A DNA stretch of 64,000 nt from Fibrobacter sp. UWB5 (lineage in GTDB: Bacteria; Fibrobacterota; Fibrobacteria; Fibrobacterales; Fibrobacteraceae). Made by a program: the position numbers and the translations under genes. Shown here piece after piece: positions 3,666-14,537 of this stretch. The stretch's first letter is position 1. Each line of letters opens with the position of its first letter. The DNA lies in contig NZ_MWQH01000005.1 in the NCBI RefSeq assembly GCF_002210295.1, forward strand, positions 62,001 to 126,000, given 5' to 3'. A model generated the notes under the pieces. The model was not told where the DNA came from and did no database searches. It saw only the letters and a list, made by a program, of their open reading frames with translations.

Positions 3666-5714
3666 TTAGAAAATCAGCAATCCGATGTGGTAGCCGATAA
3701 AGGCGAGCCCGAGCGAAAGAGCCAAGTAGTAGCCCATGATGGTGGCTAGCCACTTGAACGAGCCGGCCTCGCGGTAGGTGGTGCCCATCGCCAACACGCA
3801 GGGAACGTTGAACATCGATGCAAACAGGAAAGCGAGTGCTTCGGGCTTGCTGATGGTACTTGCAAGAGCCTCGCCCAAGTTTTCGCTTGCAGCCACGCGG
3901 GTCACAAGAGAGAACGCCTCTCCAGTGTGGTTGAAAAGCGTGCTCATAATGCCAAGCGAAGCTTCTTTACTGAACATGCCGCCCAAATAAGAGACGAAAA
4001 GTTCCCAGCGCATTCCGAAGAACATCGTCACCGGTTCAATCGCATTGCCAATCTTGTAAAGGAGCGTATTTTCCACATTGCCGTCACCCGCGTAAGAGAG
4101 CGCCCAGAAAAGGGCCGCCACCATCAGGATCATCTTCAACGCCTTCTTGAAAATTCCCCAGGTGCTACGCCCGACCATCGCAGCAATCATCTTCCAGTGC
4201 GGTTTGTGATACGGCGGCAATTCCATAATCATGCCCACGCGTTCATTCTGCGGGACAAGCTTTTTGCCGAACAGGCGCGAAGACCGGTAGAAACTGGCAA
4301 AAATCAGCGCCACGTAGCCGATGCCAAACAGCGGTGCGGCCGACCCGAAGAAAGTCGACGCCAGGAACAGCACCACAGCCACCTTGCTCCCGCACGGAAT
4401 GGCCCACAACAGAACGAGCGCAAGCAAACGTTGCCCGCGGGTATCAAGCACGCGCGTACCGCAAACTGCACCCGCCGTGCATCCAATTCCAGAGAACAGC
4501 GGCATAATCGCCTTGCCCTGCAAACCGAGGCGCGAAAGCCAGTTGTCAAACGCATACGAGAAACGCGCCATATAGCCGATTTCTTCAAGAATGCGGAACA
4601 CGAAAATGATAGCGAAAATGAAACTCGTCATACAAATCGTGATGCAAGTTCCACCGACGAGCACCAAGTTGATGAACGAAATCACCACAGGCCAAACGCC
4701 AAGCGCATTGCCAACACGTTCTACAAGCGACTGCAATACAGGCTGCATTCCAAAACCGATTCCCATGCCCGGGAAAGCGAGAATCATACACGCAATCAGC
4801 GAAACGACCATGATTCCGAATGCAAAGAACTTGCCCTTGATATGGTGCGTGGCAATGCGGTCCCACTTGCTGAAAACTTTCTCGATGGATTTCGGCGTGG
4901 CCGATTCACGCACGATCTTCGAAGCCCAGCGATACTTGGCTTCGCCGGTGAGAATGCCGCCGTCGCGCCCTTCTTCGCTATCGAGGATTGCATCAATCGC
5001 ATTCTTCCTAGCGAACGGAAGCATTTCATTCACGACACCACAAATGAGTTTGTCTTTTTCGAGAAGCTTTTCCGCAATCCAGATTTTTTCGCAAACGCCG
5101 TATTCAAAATCGCCGAGGGCTGCTTCGATACGGCTAATGAGACTATCCGTTTTTTCAGCAAGCTCTCCCCCGCCAACGAGTTCCTCGCGCAGGCTCCCGC
5201 TATCAAGGCAAACAGGCGTCTTGATAGCCAAAACCATCTTCTTGAAAAAATCAGGATAACGTTCCGTTTCGGCCGCACTGAAGCCAAGCACCGGAACGCC
5301 GAGGCGCTTTTCAATCGCAGCCACGTCAATCTTCTTGCCCGCCGCTTCGGCCACATCCATCATGTTGAGCACCAGCATCACGGGCATGCGAATGCCCACA
5401 AAATCCGCCAGCATGTAAAGGCTGCGTTCCAGCTGCGACGCATCTACCAGAATGCACACGAGGTCCGCCTTGCCGCTCTGAATGTAGTCGCGCGTGACGA
5501 CTTCTTCTTCGGAGTTCGCCGAAAGCCCGTAACTGCCCGGAAGGTCAATTACTTTATATGTCGAACCATCAAAAACAAATTCACCTTCAGCCTGCTCCAC
5601 CGTTTTGCCGGGCCAGTTGCCCACGCGCTGGTGAAGTCCCGTAAGGTTGTTAAAAAGCGTCGATTTACCAGAATTAGGCTGTCCGAGCAAAGCAATAGTC
5701 TTGATTTCGCTCAT
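3666..5714 (-). CDS. feoB: Ferrous iron transport protein B
   Basis: A 682-residue protein with the FeoB layout: an N-terminal G domain, a helical GDI-like spacer and a C-terminal membrane channel with Gate motifs. The G1 loop is GQPNSGKST (residues 11-19), with the FeoB-typical NWPGKTVE stretch following as switch I. G3 reads DLPGSYGL and G4 reads NMMD. Gate cysteines appear in GIGCTAGAVCG and near NVPC. The known role is GTP-dependent Fe2+ uptake across the inner membrane. feoA lies immediately upstream, its stop codon two bases from this start, so the pair is an operon in the usual A-B order. No FeoC-like gene follows. No clear terminator was seen between feoB and the convergent ZIP gene. 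Confidence 0.95.
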   Translation of the reverse strand: MSEIKTIALLGQPNSGKSTLFNNLTGLHQRVGNWPGKTVEQAEGEFVFDGSTYKVIDLPGSYGLSANSEEEVVTRDYIQSGKADLVCILVDASQLERSLYMLADFVGIRMPVMLVLNMMDVAEAAGKKIDVAAIEKRLGVPVLGFSAAETERYPDFFKKMVLAIKTPVCLDSGSLREELVGGGELAEKTDSLISRIEAALGDFEYGVCEKIWIAEKLLEKDKLICGVVNEMLPFARKNAIDAILDSEEGRDGGILTGEAKYRWASKIVRESATPKSIEKVFSKWDRIATHHIKGKFFAFGIMVVSLIACMILAFPGMGIGFGMQPVLQSLVERVGNALGVWPVVISFINLVLVGGTCITICMTSFIFAIIFVFRILEEIGYMARFSYAFDNWLSRLGLQGKAIMPLFSGIGCTAGAVCGTRVLDTRGQRLLALVLLWAIPCGSKVAVVLFLASTFFGSAAPLFGIGYVALIFASFYRSSRLFGKKLVPQNERVGMIMELPPYHKPHWKMIAAMVGRSTWGIFKKALKMILMVAALFWALSYAGDGNVENTLLYKIGNAIEPVTMFFGMRWELFVSYLGGMFSKEASLGIMSTLFNHTGEAFSLVTRVAASENLGEALASTISKPEALAFLFASMFNVPCVLAMGTTYREAGSFKWLATIMGYYLALSLGLAFIGYHIGLLIF

Positions 5715-5716
5715 TT

Positions 5717-5968
5717 TTACAATTCCACCTTGACAAAAATCTGTGAACTTTCCTTATAATTGACAGCGATTACCGTATCGCGGCAAAAAACGAGCACTGG
5801 CGAGCGCCCATCATTCTTGAGGAGCGTAAAGGCGGAACCCGGCGTAAGCCCGATGGAAACAATTCTTGAAATAAAGCGGGAATCGCCTTCGATCTGGGCG
5901 ACCGTCCCGCAACGATTCTCGCCCATTTCGGCGAGACTCAAACGGTCAACAAAATCAGCATTTTTCAT
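5717..5968 (-). CDS. feoA: Ferrous iron transport protein A
   Basis: An 83-residue SH3-like FeoA protein. It shows the family's pattern of a short hydrophobic and basic N-terminus, an ISRIVSIGLTPGS segment typical of the FeoA core (RLxxxGLxPGxxV), and a terminal strand ending VKVEL. FeoA proteins bind the FeoB G domain and are needed for ferrous iron uptake. The stop codon is separated from the feoB start by two bases, so translation is probably coupled. The ATG at 5968 is the first start in frame with a family-length product; its Shine-Dalgarno is weak. Confidence 0.9.
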   Translation of the reverse strand: MKNADFVDRLSLAEMGENRCGTVAQIEGDSRFISRIVSIGLTPGSAFTLLKNDGRSPVLVFCRDTVIAVNYKESSQIFVKVEL

Positions 5969-6029
5969 GCGCCAAAAGTAGCCGAAAAACGCCCCAAAAA
6001 CCGCTCCAAATGGACTTCGGGGAATCCGT

Positions 6030-7058
6030 TTATTTTCCCTTCATACTTTCCTGGATTTTAGCAATAACTTCTTCGGGTGTTACAAAATTCAAAACGCTAA
6101 ATGCAGTCATCTCGTTACCCATATCTTTAAAACTCGCCCCAAAGTGATAAACGATATCATCTACAAGCAAGAATCTATCGTGAATGGTTCGCATAGTTTT
6201 CAACTCCAGGCCGGGATATTGCTTGTTGTGCAATTCCTTGGCAGCTTTAAATTCTGGTGTAATATGTGCGGAATAAATAACCGCAGTTACTCCTTTTGTT
6301 CGCATTGCGGCAAATTTTAAAATTTCAATTGTTGCAAATGGATCGATAAACACTACAGACCGCTTCGCCAATTTCACTAAATCAGCAATCAGAGCAAGCC
6401 CGTCAAATCGAGTTCCCGTCGCAAGGATGCCGCCCGTCGGGGTTTGCGCTGCTTTCACAAAGAACTCAATATGCTTTTCAACTGTCGAAAGACGAGTTTC
6501 AACATTTTCAAGTTTTGCGCCCTGATTTTCAATTAGTTGCCGTTGTTCCTGAAACCTATTGGCTATCTGCATTCCAGTTGCAACCATCCGTTGATTTACG
6601 GCATAACCTTTGAGCATGTAGTCCTTCAAGACCTGATTAGCCCAGCGACGGAATCTTACGCCCGTTCTACTGTTGACACGATAGCCGATAGATATAATCA
6701 TATCAAGGTTGTAAAAATCAATGCGTCTTGCGACATTTCTTTTGCCTTCTTTTCGAACTACTCGAATTTTTCGAGTAGTTGAAATGTAATCAAGTTCATC
6801 GGTTTCAAAAATCTCTTGAATATGATAGGTAATCGTATTTTCTTTAACAGAGAACAATTCTGCCATTTGTCCTTGTGTTAGCCACACAGTATCATTTTCG
6901 ACACGAACCTCTAGCCGGACATCACCTTCCGGCTGATAGAGTACAATTTCGCCAAAACCCGATTCCGCAGACGGATTCGATAATACATTTGTCGATCCGG
7001 CCTTTATGCCGGAATCCTTTTCCTTGATTTTTCCCATAGCCTTGCCTATGGAACGCAT
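6030..7058 (-). CDS. RhuM-family protein with PLD-like C-terminal region
   Basis: A 342-residue protein. Residues about 37-150 match the RhuM (virulence protein) domain, with WLTQGQMAELF, RIDFYNLDMIISIGYRV and RFRRWANQVLKDYMLKGYAVN; this domain resembles phage antirepressor and KilA-type modules. A coiled-coil-like stretch follows (about 165-200). The C-terminal part contains VVFIDPFAT and IHDRFLLVDDIVYHFGAS, a pattern like phospholipase D-type domains with an HxD core. RhuM proteins are typical of genomic islands and their biochemical role is not established. A second start seven codons in (MGKIKEKDS) is possible. The gene is more AT-rich than feoAB and opens the accessory island. A perfect 15-bp palindrome lies about 40 bp upstream of the start. 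Confidence 0.75.
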   Translation of the reverse strand: MRSIGKAMGKIKEKDSGIKAGSTNVLSNPSAESGFGEIVLYQPEGDVRLEVRVENDTVWLTQGQMAELFSVKENTITYHIQEIFETDELDYISTTRKIRVVRKEGKRNVARRIDFYNLDMIISIGYRVNSRTGVRFRRWANQVLKDYMLKGYAVNQRMVATGMQIANRFQEQRQLIENQGAKLENVETRLSTVEKHIEFFVKAAQTPTGGILATGTRFDGLALIADLVKLAKRSVVFIDPFATIEILKFAAMRTKGVTAVIYSAHITPEFKAAKELHNKQYPGLELKTMRTIHDRFLLVDDIVYHFGASFKDMGNEMTAFSVLNFVTPEEVIAKIQESMKGK

Positions 7059-7096
7059 TCCCCGAAACGGGCCCCTGTCGGGGGATATAATAAAGT

Positions 7097-7111
7097 GTTG
7101 GAACTTCCAAC
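7097..7111. promoter_or_regulatory. 15-bp palindrome upstream of the RhuM gene, candidate operator
   Basis: GTTGGAACTTCCAAC is a perfect 7-1-7 inverted repeat. On the minus strand it is followed by TTTATTATAT, a plausible -10 region, so the palindrome would overlap the -35 area of the RhuM promoter. This is typical placement for autoregulation, and the RhuM protein is the nearest candidate binder. That link is inference only. Confidence 0.4.
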
Positions 7112-7575
7112 GCGGGATGAAATATACAATATCATTCCAGGTTGGATTATGATAAAATTGGCTTTTTTAGAGAAATTTGCCGTTCTTTGCACTTAAACGC
7201 ATTTTTTTTCGCAAAAAACATTCAATTTGTAAATATTTATGTTATTTTTAATGCAAAATAGAGTTTAGCTCTTGTTCTCCAAACGAAATCTGCAAATTTC
7301 AAATAACCGGGAACAAGGCGAACGCTCACGCAGGCATGCCGTTGTTAGCAGTGTGTTTCAGTTTGTCGTACCGACTTAATAGTCGGTCTTTGGTCATCTG
7401 ACCATTGGGCAACAGCCCTTTTGGGGCGTGGGTCGCTCGCATTTATCGGTTATAGGCTTTGCAGAGCCTCGTTTGGATAAATGCAACGACTCGCACCTTT
7501 TTTGTATTCAGACAAAATTTGGCAGGATTCCTTGCAACAGGGGCAGACTTTTGAAATATTCAAGGGGAGGTTGCA
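7112..7575. other. 464-bp intergenic region with three tandem hairpins
   Basis: No coding sequence with credible composition was found here. The left part is very AT-rich and could hold divergent promoters for RhuM and the zinc-ribbon operon. The right part is GC-richer and structured. CCGACT(7371-7376)/AGTCGG(7381-7386), TGGTCA(7391-7396)/TGACCA(7399-7404) and GGGC(7407-7410)/GCCC(7415-7418), the last followed by TTTT, form three consecutive small hairpins. They could be a 5' untranslated structure or small RNA for the island operon, or part of a repeat element. There is no match to a known RNA family that I can name. Confidence 0.4.
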
Positions 7576-7794
7576 ATGGCAACATACTACTGTAAGAAGT
7601 GCGGACAATCTTATACGGATTTTACGTATATGACGCGGAATACTTACTGCCCTAAAGGCGGGCATTGTGAACCCTATGAAGGTCGTGAAACTGGGCCGTG
7701 GCATTGTAAAAAATGTGGACGTGCCTACACGGATTTTAAATACATGATCCAGAATACTTACTGCGAAAAAGGCGGCAAGTGCGAACCGTTTTAA
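7576..7794 (+). CDS. Small tandem zinc-ribbon protein
   Basis: A 72-residue protein made of two near-identical units of about 33 residues. Each unit begins CKKCG, continues with a YTDFxYMxxNTYC segment, and ends KGGxCEP. The pattern CxxC plus two further cysteines per unit predicts two zinc ribbons. Related short proteins with repeated CKxCG...GxHxxYEG units occur in many gut and rumen bacteria; no function is established that I know. The start follows AAGGGGAGG closely and is well supported. It is the first gene of the island operon, with the YaaW-GTPase gene beginning 29 bp downstream. It could be a nucleic-acid or protein-binding accessory, but that is speculation. Confidence 0.7.
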   Translation: MATYYCKKCGQSYTDFTYMTRNTYCPKGGHCEPYEGRETGPWHCKKCGRAYTDFKYMIQNTYCEKGGKCEPF

Positions 7795-7823
7795 TCCAGA
7801 ATTCCTAAACCGATGGAGATGAC

Positions 7824-9020
7824 ATGCTAGATTTAGAATATCGAAAAGATCCTGACCTTGATTTTCTTGAGTTTGTGCCTGGTTACGAACTTGCTGATTT
7901 GGTAAAAATATTAACCACGAATGGAGCGAATGAAAAATACTCCTTTCAAGAATTAGATAAAGATTTAAGATTCAAAAGTTCAAAAGACCCTCATTCCTGT
8001 TGGAATCTAATCGCTGCTGAATTGCAAACATTTGGAGGTGATACTAGGGCAAATCTTTTAAGGCGTATTTTTAAAAATGGATCGGGCATTACCTATGCAG
8101 AATTGTTAGACGACGCGCTGGAAATAATCGGATATAAATCTGATGCCAAAAATCTTAAAAAGAAAGAAGAGGATTTTTATAAAGGGTGTTTTACACTAAT
8201 GTACGACAATCCTCCTGTTGATTTTCTTGGGAAAAATATTAAGATATTGGCAAATGATATCTGGAAAAATTGGAAACTGTTTTGGAAAAAATGTCCTGTT
8301 TCCATAAAAAATAAGGTTCCGCTGATTGGAGATAACATTATTTCTGGACCTAAATATCAGATAACGATTCCTTCAATATTATATGTTATAGGCCTTCGAA
8401 AAGAAAAAAATGAACTTGCAGATAAGTACAATATTTTATCCAATGTGTCGCTAGGCATTATAGGAATGCAACAGTCCGGAAAATCAACTTATCTTGAACT
8501 TTTGAGAAATGGCGAAGTTGAGGAACAAATGAAAAGAACATTTGGAGAAGTTCCATATGAAGCTTTCCAAGCAAAAGTTCTTGGAATAAATGTAGAAGGC
8601 GGTGTTGATATTGCCGGTGGCGATGCAAATGTTGTTCATTATTCCGAATATGTAATGAATAAAGAAAGGATCTTATTTTTCTTTAATGCAAAATCGTACC
8701 TAAAACCAGACGAATCTAATTTGGATTATGCGGAAAAATGCCAAGGCCGATTCCATTATGTATATGAGAAAATATATAAAGATGGAATTGCTCAAAAATC
8801 AATTAAATTCATAGGAAGTCATATTGATGAATTAGAAGAAACCGATAGAGTTCAAGCAAAAGATAAAATATATGATTCCTTAGTTTCTACAAACGCCGGA
8901 TTTGCAAAAATGTTCTCGGAAAACCCAGACGCATTGTTTGTCACTGATTTGAAACATGCTCAATGGTCTGATAATTTTGAGGAATACATCAATTTAATGA
9001 AATTTAGCTTGGGGGTATAA
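7824..9020 (+). CDS. YaaW-like (DUF3944/UPF0174) domain fused to a GTPase domain
   Basis: A 398-residue protein with two parts. Residues about 1-195 follow the layout of E. coli YaaW: DPDLDFLEF at the start, then WNLIAAELQTFGGDTRANLLR, and a closing GPKYQITIPSILYVIGLRK that corresponds to the end of YaaW. Residues about 205-398 look like a small GTPase. The P-loop is GMQQSGKST, a DIAGGD stretch is a candidate G3, and GSHIDE is a candidate G4 in place of NKxD. The N-terminal family has no settled function. A fusion to a G domain suggests a nucleotide-controlled switch on that domain. Shine-Dalgarno ATGGAG precedes the ATG. The stop is one base from the next gene, so the two are almost certainly co-translated. 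Composition is strongly AT-rich. Confidence 0.72.
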   Translation: MLDLEYRKDPDLDFLEFVPGYELADLVKILTTNGANEKYSFQELDKDLRFKSSKDPHSCWNLIAAELQTFGGDTRANLLRRIFKNGSGITYAELLDDALEIIGYKSDAKNLKKKEEDFYKGCFTLMYDNPPVDFLGKNIKILANDIWKNWKLFWKKCPVSIKNKVPLIGDNIISGPKYQITIPSILYVIGLRKEKNELADKYNILSNVSLGIIGMQQSGKSTYLELLRNGEVEEQMKRTFGEVPYEAFQAKVLGINVEGGVDIAGGDANVVHYSEYVMNKERILFFFNAKSYLKPDESNLDYAEKCQGRFHYVYEKIYKDGIAQKSIKFIGSHIDELEETDRVQAKDKIYDSLVSTNAGFAKMFSENPDALFVTDLKHAQWSDNFEEYINLMKFSLGV

Positions 9021-9021
9021 T

Positions 9022-9555
9022 ATGAAAAATATACTTTGGGTCCAAACCAAAACAGAAACAGGTTCTGACGCCATCTTGAGAAATGGTGAAATAGGTAATC
9101 AAGCTGATTACGACAAAATGCGTCAGATAAAGAAAACCACTTCATGGGAGCAATTGACTCCAGAACCATACAATGTAAAGAAGTGTGAAGATATGTTTTT
9201 TATTCAAGGTTATCTTGAAGATGTAGATTACCTTAGCTCGAGATTACCATTTGAATTTTTATGCTATTGTACGTCCTTTCATGAATTGTTTGAGGATTTG
9301 AAAAAAGCTCTTGAAACATTAAACTATCGCTTAAATGAAAATGATGTAAATAGAACAATTGGCAGATTGAAGAATTCAAATGTTTCCATTAACGGAACAT
9401 GTTTGAAAATAGATTTGCTTGTAGCATATTTAGAAAAGCTAATAAGTATTTGCAAAAAACTTGCTGAATTCTGTAAGAAACATCCTATTGTTTCATTAAT
9501 TGTAGCGGCTTTGTTTGCTGTTGTTGTAAAGAAAATACTTCAAGGAGATAATTAG
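9022..9555 (+). CDS. Unknown protein with C-terminal membrane anchor
   Basis: A 177-residue protein not recognised as any family. The first 120 residues are soluble and mixed alpha-beta in character. Residues about 130-155 form an amphipathic helix rich in Leu, Ile and Lys. Residues about 155-172 (PIVSLIVAALFAVVV) form one transmembrane helix followed by KKILQGDN, so the bulk of the protein should face the cytoplasm with a C-terminal tail anchor. It starts one base after the YaaW-GTPase stop and ends 8 bp before the next gene. In this context it could be the membrane-targeting partner or effector of the GTPase. No homology supports that, and it is offered only from gene order. Confidence 0.6.
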   Translation: MKNILWVQTKTETGSDAILRNGEIGNQADYDKMRQIKKTTSWEQLTPEPYNVKKCEDMFFIQGYLEDVDYLSSRLPFEFLCYCTSFHELFEDLKKALETLNYRLNENDVNRTIGRLKNSNVSINGTCLKIDLLVAYLEKLISICKKLAEFCKKHPIVSLIVAALFAVVVKKILQGDN

Positions 9556-9563
9556 GAGCTATT

Positions 9564-10469
9564 ATGGAAAATCCCAAAATCATTATACCACGTCCGGCTT
9601 ACATTGCTGAAAGTTTCAAATGGATGTTGAATGATTTAAAGAAAGTCTATGAAAATGATGATGATAAAAAATCTTTATGTCAATCAGCCTTAGATGACGT
9701 GTCTAATGGCTGTATAAAAATTTGTTCCATCGAAAAACTAAAGAAAGATAATCTTGTCTTTATTGATCGCATAGGCAATGTTAATCCAAAGGAAAATGAA
9801 GTCTACATTCAAAATCCCTATTTAAGCACTCAATACATAAGTTCTGAGTATTTTCTTGAAAATGTTCAGAAGCAACGTTATAATCTTTACAAATTGCTTT
9901 TGCAGAAATTAGGTGCAAAACATGTTTATAAGAAAACAAATACAAATAATATTAACGAAAGTGATTTAAAAATTGACCTTAATGTGGGTAAAGAAAGCAA
10001 AGCGAAAGATAATGAAAAAGGATTTGCTGATAAAGACGAAAAAAGTATGAAATTATCTTTGGAAAAAGAACTTAAGGAGTTACTTGAAGAAAATTATTGG
10101 GAAGATTTTTCATTTGAAAATAATTCAAGTGAGGGCTTTTCTAAAGTTCACTGGAATAGAGCAAAGGAATTTGTTTCGAAAAACAATCTTCAAGATGATA
10201 CAGAATTTAGCACTTTGTTAGAACAGAGAAATCCCGACAATCCATCTTTATTAAGGACATTTGAAACGCACTATAATAGTAAAAAGGATTGTACATCTGT
10301 ATTGGACTTGAATTTTGAAATAGATATTGCAAAAACTGCTTTCGGTTTCAATCCTGCAACAAAAGTAATAAACAAGTTCTTAAAATTGTCTTTCGACATT
10401 GACTTTAAGCTAAAAAGAAAATTGCACAATATTATGGAGCAATCTATAGAACTGAAAGTTGAATTTTAG
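9564..10469 (+). CDS. Unknown island protein
   Basis: A 301-residue protein with no family I recognise. Residues 1-130 appear folded and include YIQNPYLSTQYIS and a LLLQKLGAKHV stretch. Residues about 130-175 are a charged, Lys/Asp/Glu-rich and probably flexible linker. The remainder is helical and ends in basic and hydrophobic residues. There is no signal peptide and no convincing membrane segment. A good Shine-Dalgarno (TTAGGAG) precedes the ATG, 8 bp after the previous stop, so it belongs to the same transcript. Codon use and composition match the two genes upstream and differ from the core genes outside the island. Confidence 0.6.
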   Translation: MENPKIIIPRPAYIAESFKWMLNDLKKVYENDDDKKSLCQSALDDVSNGCIKICSIEKLKKDNLVFIDRIGNVNPKENEVYIQNPYLSTQYISSEYFLENVQKQRYNLYKLLLQKLGAKHVYKKTNTNNINESDLKIDLNVGKESKAKDNEKGFADKDEKSMKLSLEKELKELLEENYWEDFSFENNSSEGFSKVHWNRAKEFVSKNNLQDDTEFSTLLEQRNPDNPSLLRTFETHYNSKKDCTSVLDLNFEIDIAKTAFGFNPATKVINKFLKLSFDIDFKLKRKLHNIMEQSIELKVEF

Positions 10470-10490
10470 TTTCGACAGCAACTAATTGAA

Positions 10491-11126
10491 ATGAATTTCT
10501 TTTCCAAAACTTTATTCGTTAATTTCTACCCATACATAGGTAAGGATTATGCAAATGCTCTGCACAAAATTCTTGTGCTAGGCGAATCGCATTACGGTCC
10601 GCAATCTAACAATGGCTACCACGAGTGGACTCGTGAGGTGGTCGAGAAGGATTTCCTGGGAAACTACGATAAGGGAGCGACACTCCCTAAATGGGCGCAG
10701 TGCCACCGCAATACGGCAAATGTTCTTGCTTCGATCCGTGATGTAAATCCGCACGAAGTTTACGATAAAATTGCCTTCTATAATTTCTTCCAAAAAAGCA
10801 TTGGCGAAGGCGACCACGCGGATAAACGTTATTTAACGGCAGAATTAAAGGATTTGTCTGCCAAAGCCCTTGCCGAGGTTATGGAAATTCTGCGTCCTGA
10901 TTTGATTGTCGGTTGGGGGTGGGATAATCTTGAATGGAAATATCTCCCGCAGGCTCGTGATCAAATTGAGATTAGCAAGAATTGTGCTGGAATAAACCTA
11001 CATTTGTTCACATTGAACGGCTTCCCGCCCGTCCCCATTTGGTGTATGCACCATCCGTCTATGGGTATAAACATTGATGCCCATAGAGAATGTTTTTCTA
11101 AAATCAAGAAATACCTCAAATGGTGA
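10491..11126 (+). CDS. Uracil-DNA glycosylase-fold-like protein
   Basis: A 211-residue protein with hallmarks of the UDG-like superfamily. ILVLGESHYG near residues 27-36 corresponds to the early GxDP/GEAPG-type motif. DLIVGWGWDN lies in the middle. MHHPSMG near residue 187 corresponds to the late HPS motif that contacts DNA in uracil-DNA glycosylases. Proteins with LGESHYG are usually annotated only as hypothetical or UDG-like. It follows the previous gene by 21 bp without a good Shine-Dalgarno, and its middle part is GC-richer than the genes before it, so it may have joined the operon separately. If part of the system, a DNA-acting or nucleotide-sensing role would fit, but no activity is shown. 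Confidence 0.55.
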   Translation: MNFFSKTLFVNFYPYIGKDYANALHKILVLGESHYGPQSNNGYHEWTREVVEKDFLGNYDKGATLPKWAQCHRNTANVLASIRDVNPHEVYDKIAFYNFFQKSIGEGDHADKRYLTAELKDLSAKALAEVMEILRPDLIVGWGWDNLEWKYLPQARDQIEISKNCAGINLHLFTLNGFPPVPIWCMHHPSMGINIDAHRECFSKIKKYLKW

Positions 11127-11148
11127 ATTTCTTGGTGTATTTGCGTTA

Positions 11149-11238
11149 GGGGGCGTCGCACTTTTGTGGCGAGACGCGTAGCGGCTCGATGAGCCGAAGG
11201 CGAACAGCACCCGACCCGGCAAGCCGGGGAACGCCCTC
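11149..11238. other. 90-nt multi-hairpin (cloverleaf-like) element
   Basis: GGGGGCGT (11149-11156) can pair with ACGCCCTC (11231-11238) as an outer stem with one G-U pair. The enclosed sequence holds a perfect CGGCTC/GAGCCG hairpin (11182-11196), a CCCGG/CCGGG hairpin (11215-11228), and a weaker CGC/GCG one near 11157-11171. It is followed by an A run. It does not have the conserved bases of a tRNA. It lies between the end of the island operon and the RND gene, and could be a structured RNA, a terminator or a mobile palindromic element. Confidence 0.4.
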
Positions 11239-11307
11239 AAAAAAAACTCCAAATAGACAATAAACAATCCGAAAGGATTTAAAAACTGTTCGGTTTTGCG
11301 CAAAACC

Positions 11308-11358
11308 ATTTGGAGTAGAATTTTTAGGCCCATATCCCTATTTTTGCACCGCAAAAAA
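11308..11358 (+). promoter_or_regulatory. Upstream box shared with the first RND exporter gene
   Basis: This is the second copy of the leader described at 444-493: TTTGGAGTAGAA, GGCCC, CTATTTTT, CACC-C and an A tract, leading into GAGG at 11361-11364 and the ATG at 11370. Just upstream, CTCCAAAT near 11247 can pair with ATTTGGAG (11308-11314), and GGTTTTGCGCAAAACC (11291-11306) is a perfect 16-bp palindrome. The combination suggests an operator or strong secondary structure in the leader. Confidence 0.5.
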
Positions 11359-11369
11359 AAGAGGATACA

Positions 11370-13745
11370 ATGAGCCTACCAAAGATCAACATTGAAAAAA
11401 TCAACGAGCGATTCGGCCGTTTTGGCGAATTTTTGCTCGCACACCGCGCCATTATGCTAGTGGCGTTTGTCGTTTTGCTCGCAGTTTCGGTCGTGGGCAT
11501 GAAAAAAATCTACGTCGAGGCGTCGTGGGACAGCTACTTTATCGAGGGCGACCCGATGCTTGTCGAAACGGACAAGTTCAAGGAAACTTTCGGTAACGAC
11601 TATTTCGTGGGCGTGCTGGTCGAAAGCGACCATTCCATCTTGACGCCGGACAACCTGAAGCTATTGCGCGAGCTTTCGAACGAACTGCGCGACAGCCTCT
11701 CGTATTCCGACGGCAAGGCGACTTCGATTGTCGATTTGGAATACATGCTCGGCACCGAAGAGGGCATGGAAATCACGCAGATTGTGCCCGAAGAAATCCC
11801 GACAGACGAAGCGGGCCTCGCAGAAATCGAGAAGCGCCTGGCCGACAAGCCGGAACTGGCGAAGAAGCTGATTTCGAGTGACCGCAAGCAGGCCTTCATC
11901 AACATCAAGCTGCGCCCCTTCCCCGAAGATGACCTGTGGAAAGCCGAAGGCGAAGCGAAGGGTGAAAAGGCGGAAGCCCCCGACATGAAAACGGGTCGCG
12001 AAACGGCAGCAATCATCGCGAAGGAAAAGTATGCACCGCTGAATCCGCGCGCTACGGGCATGCCTTACTTGAGCTTCGAGAAGATGACTTACATCGGTCA
12101 GGAAATGGGTCGCATTTTCATCATGACCATTCTCTGCGCCATCATCGTGATGTTCTTGGTGACACGTTCGCTGCGCGGAATCGTCTCGCCGTTGATTACG
12201 ACTTTTGCGGGAGTCATCATGACTTTCGGCCTGGTGGGTTATCTCGGACTTTATATGGATGCAACCAACATCATGGTGCCCGTGATTTTGGCCTTCGCCG
12301 TTTCAATTGCATACAACATTCACATCAACTCATTCTTCCGCAAGAACATGATGCTTACGGGCAAACGCAAGGAATCGGTGCTTTACGCCATGCGTGAAAC
12401 GGGCTGGTCGGTGCTTTTCTCGGGCCTTACCACGATTGTCGCGTTGCTCAGTTTCCTTTCGGTGATGCTCAAGCCGATTCGCTCCGTGGGCATTCTCTCG
12501 TCGATTGCGATTGCATTCATTCTTCTCGTGGCGCTGACGGTTTCGCCGATTCTCCTGAGTTTCGGCAAAGACAAGAAGCCGAACGCGAAGGTGCTTGAAC
12601 GCGGTGACACGCGCATGGGAGTCATTCTCGATTCTATCGGAAAATTCGTTCTCGGGCACGGCAAGCCGATTGCGATTGTATTCGCCATCGTAACTGCAAT
12701 TTCTGCTTTCGGGCTCACCAAGATAGAACCCGCCTTTGACGTAGAACGCACCATGGGCCGCAAGGTCGAATACGTGAACAAGATGCTCTACGTGGCAGAA
12801 TCCGAAATCGGAAGCTTCTATTCGTACGACCTGGTGATTGACTTTGGTACAAACGACAAGGCCAAGGAAGTCGAGAATCTGAAAAAGCTCGAACAGTTGC
12901 AGGATCATGCCGGCAAGTACCCGCTCACCAAGCGTTCCACCTCCATTCTTGACATCGTCAAGGATTTGGACCGCACGCTGAACGAGAACCGTCAGGATAA
13001 ATACGCCATTCCCGAAACGGAAGAAGAAGTCGCTCAGCTGCTTTTGCTCTACGAAAACGCGGGCGGCAGCGAAGCAAGCTACTGGATGGATTACGATTAC
13101 AGGAAGCTCCGCCTGATGATTGAAATTTCGAGCTACAACTCCAACGAACTCCAGAAGGAAATCGAGGACTTGCAGAATTTCGCACGCAAGCTTTACCCGG
13201 ACGCAAAGGTGACTGCCGTAGGAAACCTGCCGCAGTTCACCGCCATGCAGCAGTACCTGGAAGTGGGCCAGATGACGTCGTTCCTGATTTCTGTAGTCAT
13301 CGTGGCTGTCCTTTTGATGATCGTTTTCGGCAGCATTCGCACGGGCCTTATCGGCATGATTCCGAACATTGCGCCGGGCATTTTCGTGGGCGGCTACCTT
13401 GGACTCACGGACATTCCGCTTGACATGATGACGGCGACGCTCATCCCGATGATTATCGGCCTTTCCGTCGACGACACGATTCACTTCATCAACCACGGGC
13501 ATGTGGAATTTGACCGCACCCACGATTACCGCGAATCGATTCTCAACGTATTCCGCACGGCAGGCCCGGCACTCGTGATGACGACGATTATCATGGTGGC
13601 GACATTTGCGGGCTTTACCACCTCGGCCGCAACGCAGATGTTCAACTTCGGCTTCGTGGTGTTCGTGGGCCTTGTCTCGGCACTGCTCGCCGACCTGTTT
13701 GTGACACCGCTTTTAATCAAGAAATTCAAGATTTTTGGAAAATAG
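11370..13745 (+). CDS. RND/MMPL-family exporter (second paralog)
   Basis: A 791-residue RND-superfamily exporter, paralogous to the protein at 505-2853 over its whole length: same helix layout, same LRGIVSPLITTFAGVIMTFG-type second helix, and the GLSVDDTIHFINH motif in the second bundle. It differs by a longer acidic stretch near residues 190-215. ATG 11370 has a clear GAGG Shine-Dalgarno. The next five genes (LolA-like protein, outer-membrane barrel, TonB, ExbB, ExbD) follow with gaps of at most about 40 bp, so this exporter is probably the inner-membrane part of an envelope trafficking system. RND proteins next to LolA-like genes are commonly linked to lipid or lipoprotein movement. The true cargo is unknown. 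Confidence 0.85.
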   Translation: MSLPKINIEKINERFGRFGEFLLAHRAIMLVAFVVLLAVSVVGMKKIYVEASWDSYFIEGDPMLVETDKFKETFGNDYFVGVLVESDHSILTPDNLKLLRELSNELRDSLSYSDGKATSIVDLEYMLGTEEGMEITQIVPEEIPTDEAGLAEIEKRLADKPELAKKLISSDRKQAFINIKLRPFPEDDLWKAEGEAKGEKAEAPDMKTGRETAAIIAKEKYAPLNPRATGMPYLSFEKMTYIGQEMGRIFIMTILCAIIVMFLVTRSLRGIVSPLITTFAGVIMTFGLVGYLGLYMDATNIMVPVILAFAVSIAYNIHINSFFRKNMMLTGKRKESVLYAMRETGWSVLFSGLTTIVALLSFLSVMLKPIRSVGILSSIAIAFILLVALTVSPILLSFGKDKKPNAKVLERGDTRMGVILDSIGKFVLGHGKPIAIVFAIVTAISAFGLTKIEPAFDVERTMGRKVEYVNKMLYVAESEIGSFYSYDLVIDFGTNDKAKEVENLKKLEQLQDHAGKYPLTKRSTSILDIVKDLDRTLNENRQDKYAIPETEEEVAQLLLLYENAGGSEASYWMDYDYRKLRLMIEISSYNSNELQKEIEDLQNFARKLYPDAKVTAVGNLPQFTAMQQYLEVGQMTSFLISVVIVAVLLMIVFGSIRTGLIGMIPNIAPGIFVGGYLGLTDIPLDMMTATLIPMIIGLSVDDTIHFINHGHVEFDRTHDYRESILNVFRTAGPALVMTTIIMVATFAGFTTSAATQMFNFGFVVFVGLVSALLADLFVTPLLIKKFKIFGK

Positions 13746-13754
13746 GAGAAATTT

Positions 13755-14537
13755 ATGAATATGAAATTCGCAAAAAAAGCCGCGACAATTATTGTCGCCT
13801 TGAGCGCCATGGTGAGCGCAGAAACTTTGACCGGCCGCGACATCGTGCAAAAAGTGCATGACCGCCCCGATGGCGACACACGCAGTTCCGAACTCTCAAT
13901 GACTCTCATCAACAAGAGCGGAGCCAAGCGCGAACGCAAGATTACCTCGTTTGCAATGGACGTGGGTAAGGACACCAAGCAGATCATGTTCTTCCGCTAC
14001 CCCAACGACGTGAAGGGCACAGGATTCCTGACTGTCGATTATGACGACATCAACAAGGATGACGACAAGTGGCTTTACCTGCCCGCCATGAAAAAGACGC
14101 GCCGCATTAGCGGAAAGAGTTCCAAGACGGATTACTTCATGGGCTCCGACTTCACTTACGACGATGTGGGCCTGCGCAACATCGACGAAGACACGCATAC
14201 ATTTGTGCGCGAAGAAAAGGTCGATGGCGTGGACTGCTGGGTCGTTGAATCCGTGCCGAAAAAAGGCGACGAAATCTTCTCGAAGAAAATCTCCTGGATT
14301 CGCAAGGACTGCCTGATTGCAGCGAAAGTGGAATACTACGACAAGCTCGGCAAACTGCACCGCTCGCTGAAAGTTGAAAACGTGGTTCAGGTAGACGGTT
14401 TCTGGTCTATCGCCAAGATGAGCATGGAAAACGTGCAGACCAACCACAAGACACTCCTTGAATTCGGCGACATCAAGTTCAACATTCCGCTTGACGCAAA
14501 GACATTCACCGTCCCGCGCCTGGAAAGAGGACTCTAG
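13755..14537 (+). CDS. LolA-like outer membrane lipoprotein-sorting protein
   Basis: A 260-residue periplasmic protein with a signal peptide (basic start, hydrophobic core, cleavage probably after VSAE or VSA near residue 22). The rest fits the 'outer membrane lipoprotein-sorting protein' family (PF17131-like, LolA/LolB fold). Typical features are [19 protein letters not shown], repeated beta strands, a [17 protein letters not shown] segment and GSDFTYDDV. These proteins form a hydrophobic half-barrel and are usually encoded next to RND/MMPL exporters, as here. The start has an AGGAG Shine-Dalgarno nine bases after the RND stop. A role as periplasmic carrier for the exporter's hydrophobic cargo is the obvious inference. 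Confidence 0.8.

Follow-up and report, generated by a model that had tools for sequence, protein, structure and literature searches.

A JukA/YaaW Domain That Lacks Its Hydrophobic Half Is Fused to a Divergent G Domain in a Putative Three-Gene Immune-Type Cassette of Fibrobacter

The window analyzed here is a stretch of 64,000 nucleotides from Fibrobacter sp. UWB5. Near its beginning lies a compact cassette of three genes, P0001, P0002, and P0003, whose features are listed in Table 1 together with those of the adjoining genes. P0001 is an intact open reading frame with an ATG start and occupies exactly positions 7824-9020; the fusion of a YaaW-like start to a P-loop GTPase-like second half, as proposed in an earlier sequence-only reading of this DNA, is encoded by one uninterrupted gene. 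The genes follow each other closely: the P0001 stop, at 9020, is followed by starts at 9022 (P0002), 9564 (P0003), and 10491 (P0004).

Table 1. Features of the cassette and adjoining genes (aa, amino acids or residue numbers in the encoded protein)
Feature	Position	Strand	Evidence
P0005, 72 aa, tandem zinc-ribbon-like, upstream	7576..7794	+	relatives adjoin P0004-family genes in L034, L035
P0001 ORF, 398 aa	7824..9020	+	JukA/YaaW N-terminal domain, JukA C-terminal motif, and G domain
JukA/YaaW N-terminal (DUF3944 + core) domain, aa 5-109	7836..8150	+	34-JukA HMM; AF2 model
Kept JukA C-terminal motif GPKYQITIPSILYVIGLRK, aa 173-197	8340..8414	+	34-JukA HMM
Divergent G domain, aa 208-398	8445..9017	+	motifs, P0013 alignment, profile vs PDB
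G1 P-loop GMQQSGKST, aa 214-222	8463-8489	+	motif
G3 DIAGG(D), aa 262-267	8607-8624	+	motif
G4-like SHID (GSHIDE aa 331-336; SHID aa 332-335)	8814-8831	+	motif
P0002, 177 aa, WVQT start, C-terminal membrane helix aa 155-173, putative membrane effector	9022..9555	+	homologues P0008, P0014; hydropathy 2.31
P0003, 301 aa, orphan family, third cassette gene, putative adaptor/regulator	9564..10469	+	homologues P0010, P0015
P0004, 211 aa, uracil-DNA-glycosylase-like (GESHYG, HPS)	10491..11126	+	profile vs 4zbx

The first half of P0001 is related to the JukA/YaaW family. The PADLOC JukA models match it with E-values of 1.4e-23 and 1.1e-17 and the NCBIfam YaaW model (PRK10236) with 2.8e-11, while Pfam DUF3944 (1.5e-4) falls slightly short of its cut-off. 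We also used an HMM of 34 JukA proteins from which P0001 was left out. Residues 5-109 match this HMM with an i-E of 2.7e-21 and residues 173-197 with an i-E of 0.0027; of 1,000 shuffled sequences, none matched it at E 10. Since the HMM matches both regions, the landmarks of YaaW named in the sequence-only reading are real: the DPDLDFL start (residues 9-15), the IAAELQTFGGD core (60-73), and the C-terminal end (175-193). Most of the AF2 model of residues 5-109 has a pLDDT of 67-96.

That first half is nevertheless not a whole YaaW, because the hydrophobic half is missing; the sequence-only reading was right about the N-terminal domain and the C-terminal motif, but what lies between them in a complete YaaW is absent. 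HMM positions 104-215 (approximately 112) are replaced in P0001 by 63 unmatched residues. The Pfam domain PF03981 (Ubiq_cyt_C_chap), which is present in the ordinary JukA protein P0009 (1.3e-12), has no match in P0001. The best 19-residue hydropathy past residue 105 is 0.98 in P0001 and 1.14 in P0007, a second fusion protein described below, compared to 1.24-2.27 in the 34 JukA proteins. All 34 sampled JukA proteins have a hydrophobic, membrane-type half; P0001 keeps the N-terminal domain and the last approximately 25 residues, with this half deleted.

The sequence-only reading treated YaaW as a family without known function, which is out of date. The YaaW family is now identified with JukA, which serves the Juk anti-phage system as its sensor; JukA recognizes early proteins that are anchored in the vesicle of jumbo phages, recruits the pore-former JukB, and is described as one of the most abundant immune proteins of bacteria (PMC13282480). 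Silencing of jukA makes Pseudomonas aeruginosa PA14 sensitive to phiKZ (PMC12571901). Nor is a fusion to a GTPase new as a clue to YaaW function, real as the present one is: YaaW-GTPase fusions were noted in 2008 in Shewanella and Campylobacter coli and cited in support of yaaW being a functional gene (PMC2268670). As far as descriptions can be compared, those proteins resemble P0001 in joining YaaW to a P-loop GTPase, but they have a recognizable MMR_HSR1 domain (PMC2268670), whereas the G domain of P0001 is divergent and belongs to a three-gene cassette.

We call the second half of P0001 a divergent G domain. Its G1, G3, and G4-like motifs are in the correct order, and the three stretches picked out in the sequence-only reading (GMQQSGKST, DIAGGD, and GSHIDE) are found at the residues given in Table 1. 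Two related proteins from another genome of the genus, P0007 and the stand-alone GTPase P0013, allow a comparison of the motifs. The Walker A residues GKST are intact in all three members. The aspartate of the G3 DxxG motif is kept in P0001 (DIAG) and P0013 (DIPGG) and lost in P0007 (ETVPGD). At G4, P0001 has SHID, P0007 THGD, and P0013 THID, and the canonical NKxD occurs in none of the three; THxD at this position is Roc-like. Profile scores of the P0001 G domain alone are marginal (Roc 0.14 in Pfam; small_GTP 0.056 in NCBIfam). The domain aligns to P0013 (BLASTP 6e-12), which itself scores 3.9e-4 with G-alpha (short of the cut-off) and 0.0027 with MMR_HSR1. A profile of the three members finds EngA in the PDB at 4e-4, and Arf (0.009) and G-alpha chains at approximately 0.004-0.01. 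With a limited set of relatives in the alignment, AF2 gives a pLDDT below 50 over most of the G domain and 34.9 for the domain alone, and a structure search with this low-confidence model returned short helical matches only (best Z 4.5). GTPases encoded next to JukA in other genomes (see below) were misaligned past the P-loop when added to the G-domain alignment, and this extended alignment was dropped.

Because G4 is SHID and not NKxD, and because P0007 is without the G3 aspartate, hydrolysis or guanine specificity may have been lost. An alternative reading is that the G domain is degenerate, i.e., that it binds nucleotide and serves for oligomerization without switching. P0001 would then be an ordinary JukA-type sensor that assembles at the membrane and recruits P0002 directly. 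The altered G4 and G3 motifs and the weak scores agree with such a reading, but the intact GKST in every member, the aspartate kept in P0001 and P0013, and the THID of P0013 argue against it, and we consider it unlikely.

The cassette is found in distantly related forms elsewhere in the genus. The genome G129 has two sites. The first carries, in order, P0007 (a YaaW-GTPase fusion of 381 amino acids), P0008 (a WVQT protein with a single C-terminal membrane helix), P0010 (a homologue of P0003), a P0004-family gene, and an EcsC protein. At the second (L141), P0013 is a GTPase of 229 amino acids without YaaW and with a hydrophobic N-terminus; it is followed by P0014, a WIQK protein whose membrane helix is C-terminal, and by P0015, another homologue of P0003. 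P0008 matches P0002 with an E-value of 6e-8 and P0010 matches P0003 with 5e-10 (z 14), while P0015 matches P0003 with z 20. Pairwise scores lie 14-24 standard deviations above those of shuffled sequences (z) for the trio GTPases and for the P0003 family; z is 13.9 for P0002 and P0008, and P0014 is weakly supported as a relative of P0002 (z 6.9 with P0002, 2.8 with P0008). The trio genes are separated by gaps of 1-16 bp or overlap by 4 bp. By this comparison, the trio is the constant part of the cassette and the JukA domain an added module. The JukA domain looks like an exchangeable sensor module, because the JukA-free trio has a hydrophobic N-terminus on its GTPase instead. Downstream of the JukA-free trio (L141:5025-6824) there are a PD-(D/E)XK nuclease and a second uracil-DNA-glycosylase (UDG)-like protein.

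P0003 has no match in Pfam, PADLOC, or the PDB, and in PADLOC none of P0002-P0004 matches JukB; Juk effectors are diverse (PMC13282480). Since neither P0002 nor P0003 has a characterized relative, the roles given for them in Table 1 are guesses.

The gene that follows the trio, P0004, begins 21 bp downstream of P0003. P0004 has no UDG match in Pfam; a profile of its family (17 relatives) matches the solved UDG 4zbx (E 0.002), and 17 of 17 members have HPS or HPR. Of 168 Fibrobacterota genomes, 31 have the family, and most of these lack JukA. Its genes lie directly downstream of GTPase-type cassettes at five loci (L017, L018, L022, L026, and L027). In the wider set of UDG-like loci (GESHY, HPS; L017-L046), several are directly downstream of GTPase or dynamin cassettes, and a tandem zinc-ribbon gene is often adjacent. 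As a core gene of the cassette P0004 is unproven, and DNA of 90% identity encodes it in the genome G107, where there is no JukA; it is probably an associated gene. A glycosylase gene beside a JukA sensor is suggestive, because the DNA of some jumbo phages contains uracil (PMC13282480) and glycosylases can act against phages (PMC11078745). On the upstream side, P0005 is probably a resident neighbor. Also just upstream is a gene for a RhuM-family protein (6030-7058, minus strand), which matches the PADLOC candidate PDC-S05 (3e-111). Rfam gives no match over positions 5500-14000, and promoter and terminator scans stayed at chance level.

Where did the cassette come from? P0001-P0003 have a GC content of 31.7%, against an average of 51.6% (standard deviation 5.2%), the lowest of all stretches of the same length in the window. 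This base composition points to a horizontal origin. Homologues of P0002 and P0003 occur in 2 of 168 Fibrobacterota genomes, those of P0001 itself and G129, and JukA in 3 of 168. No close relatives of P0001 were found in genome contigs. Queries A2, A6, and A5 against viral contigs and P0010, P0013, and P0015 against plasmids found no relatives, and all matches of P0001 in plasmids and phages were JukA-type genes. A profile of the P0003 family found one marginal match in 345 (7e-4) in a sample of another phylum, which has ordinary neighbor genes and was set aside as chance, and none in two further phylum samples (189 and 190, run without a positive control). In G155, a relative from Fibrobacter, an ordinary JukA is followed by two dynamin-like proteins (L010:7221-11508); this system and the fusion cassette of G129 occupy the same chromosomal site and adjoin the same transporter gene.

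YaaW is chromosomal and conserved in enterics, and the literature searched reports no phage activity for E. coli YaaW, so one might suppose that the cassette is a housekeeping or stress module and has no part in immunity. An AT-rich, patchily distributed cassette, a site in common with a JukA-dynamin system, and a neighbor that matches a PADLOC defense candidate make this quite improbable.

We are also interested in whether JukA is associated with GTPases in other bacteria. Among 89 further JukA/YaaW loci, none has a P-loop within the JukA reading frame, so the fusion is rare in this sample, which was collected with a peptide pattern and is biased accordingly. HSR1- or dynamin-type GTPase genes lie near JukA at 9 of 79 genomic loci, a count that is descriptive because these GTPase genes themselves went into the search HMM. 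In eight of them (L048, L055, L077, L085, L092, L113, L115, and L117) the GTPase gene is on the same strand and within approximately 250 bp of JukA; in L103 it is 785 bp away. These loci resemble P0001 in coupling JukA to TRAFAC-type GTPases, but they do so in trans and nearly all with a full-length JukA. Fusions, adjacent GTPase genes, and the JukA-dynamin pair of G155 thus make the partnership of JukA with GTPases, whether in cis or in trans, a recurring theme. That P0001 is itself a dynamin- or IRG-like membrane GTPase, targeted to the phage vesicle by its JukA-derived domain and remodeling the membrane there, would fit the dynamin and IIGP/AIG1-like types among the JukA-adjacent GTPases and the pair in G155, but is quite improbable, as P0001 ends with its G domain, so that a dynamin stalk or paddle could not fit behind it, and in a profile comparison the adjacent GTPases align to this domain in the P-loop region alone.

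Some JukA loci have other peculiarities. In L048 and L085, from gammaproteobacterial MAGs (Succinivibrionaceae, Aeromonadales), JukA is flanked on either side by a different HSR1-type GTPase gene. In L116 (2523-4004), the N-terminal domain carried by JukA contains the motif NCEHF and resembles the LRAT/NlpC type (phospholipase/acyltransferase-like). Two JukA proteins have long C-terminal extensions (L060:454-1860, 468 amino acids; L079:6001-7440, 479 amino acids). The long JukA frames of L151-L154 (Pseudomonadota) were rejected as fusions, being open-frame extensions of GC-rich DNA.

How does the cassette compare to known systems? Like Juk (jumbo phage killer, the sensor JukA plus the pore JukB; doi 10.1016/j.cell.2025.02.016, as reviewed in PMC13282480), it has the JukA N-terminal domain and C-terminal motif and, in second position, a gene for a small membrane protein. 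It differs from Juk in that the internal hydrophobic half is missing, a G domain is fused, a third gene is added, and PADLOC finds no JukB. None of the features found here ties the cassette to nucleus-forming phages. The DO-GTPase/GAP1 conflict systems, in the accessible part of their description, also combine a GTPase threshold switch with membrane components and occasionally a DNA glycosylase; JukA is not reported in that part (PMC7159879). The P0001 locus differs from them in having no GAP1, no GASH, and no Pfam DO-GTPase match at the cut-off: GAP1 found no match among the cassette neighbors, and PF19993 (DO-GTPase) matched P0013 only (E 0.04).

We give about even chances to the reading that the three genes are an immune-type module of horizontal origin in which P0001 acts as sensor and switch, i.e., a GTPase-gated, membrane-acting variant of JukA immunity. 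By homology to JukA, the N-terminal domain would recognize some signal of early infection. Recognition would then alter the nucleotide state of the fused G domain and so set a threshold. In its GTP form, P0001 would engage P0002 and P0003. P0002 might take over the membrane role of JukA's missing hydrophobic half, or that of JukB, and damage or mark either the phage vesicle or the host membrane. P0003 could be an adaptor or a regulator of the switch, which is a guess.

The literature searched contains no JukA domain without its hydrophobic half, no such trio, and no JukA-free sister of it, although the original Juk paper may list GTPase partners. It is tempting to hypothesize, if more tentatively, that the cassette represents an undescribed, GTPase-centered immune system of three genes with a swappable N-terminal sensor. 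Here the sensor would be a membrane-stripped JukA, and sensing would take place off the membrane and be gated by nucleotide.

How JukA sensing reaches the effectors has been worked out for few partners. A JukA sensor joined to a switch and without its membrane half would be a case in which sensing and execution have been separated in nature. The JukA-free sister cassette offers a ready control, and both the ligand of the JukA N-terminal domain and the gating by the GTPase become directly testable. The JukA-GTPase gene pairs that recur elsewhere suggest that the link may be a general one.
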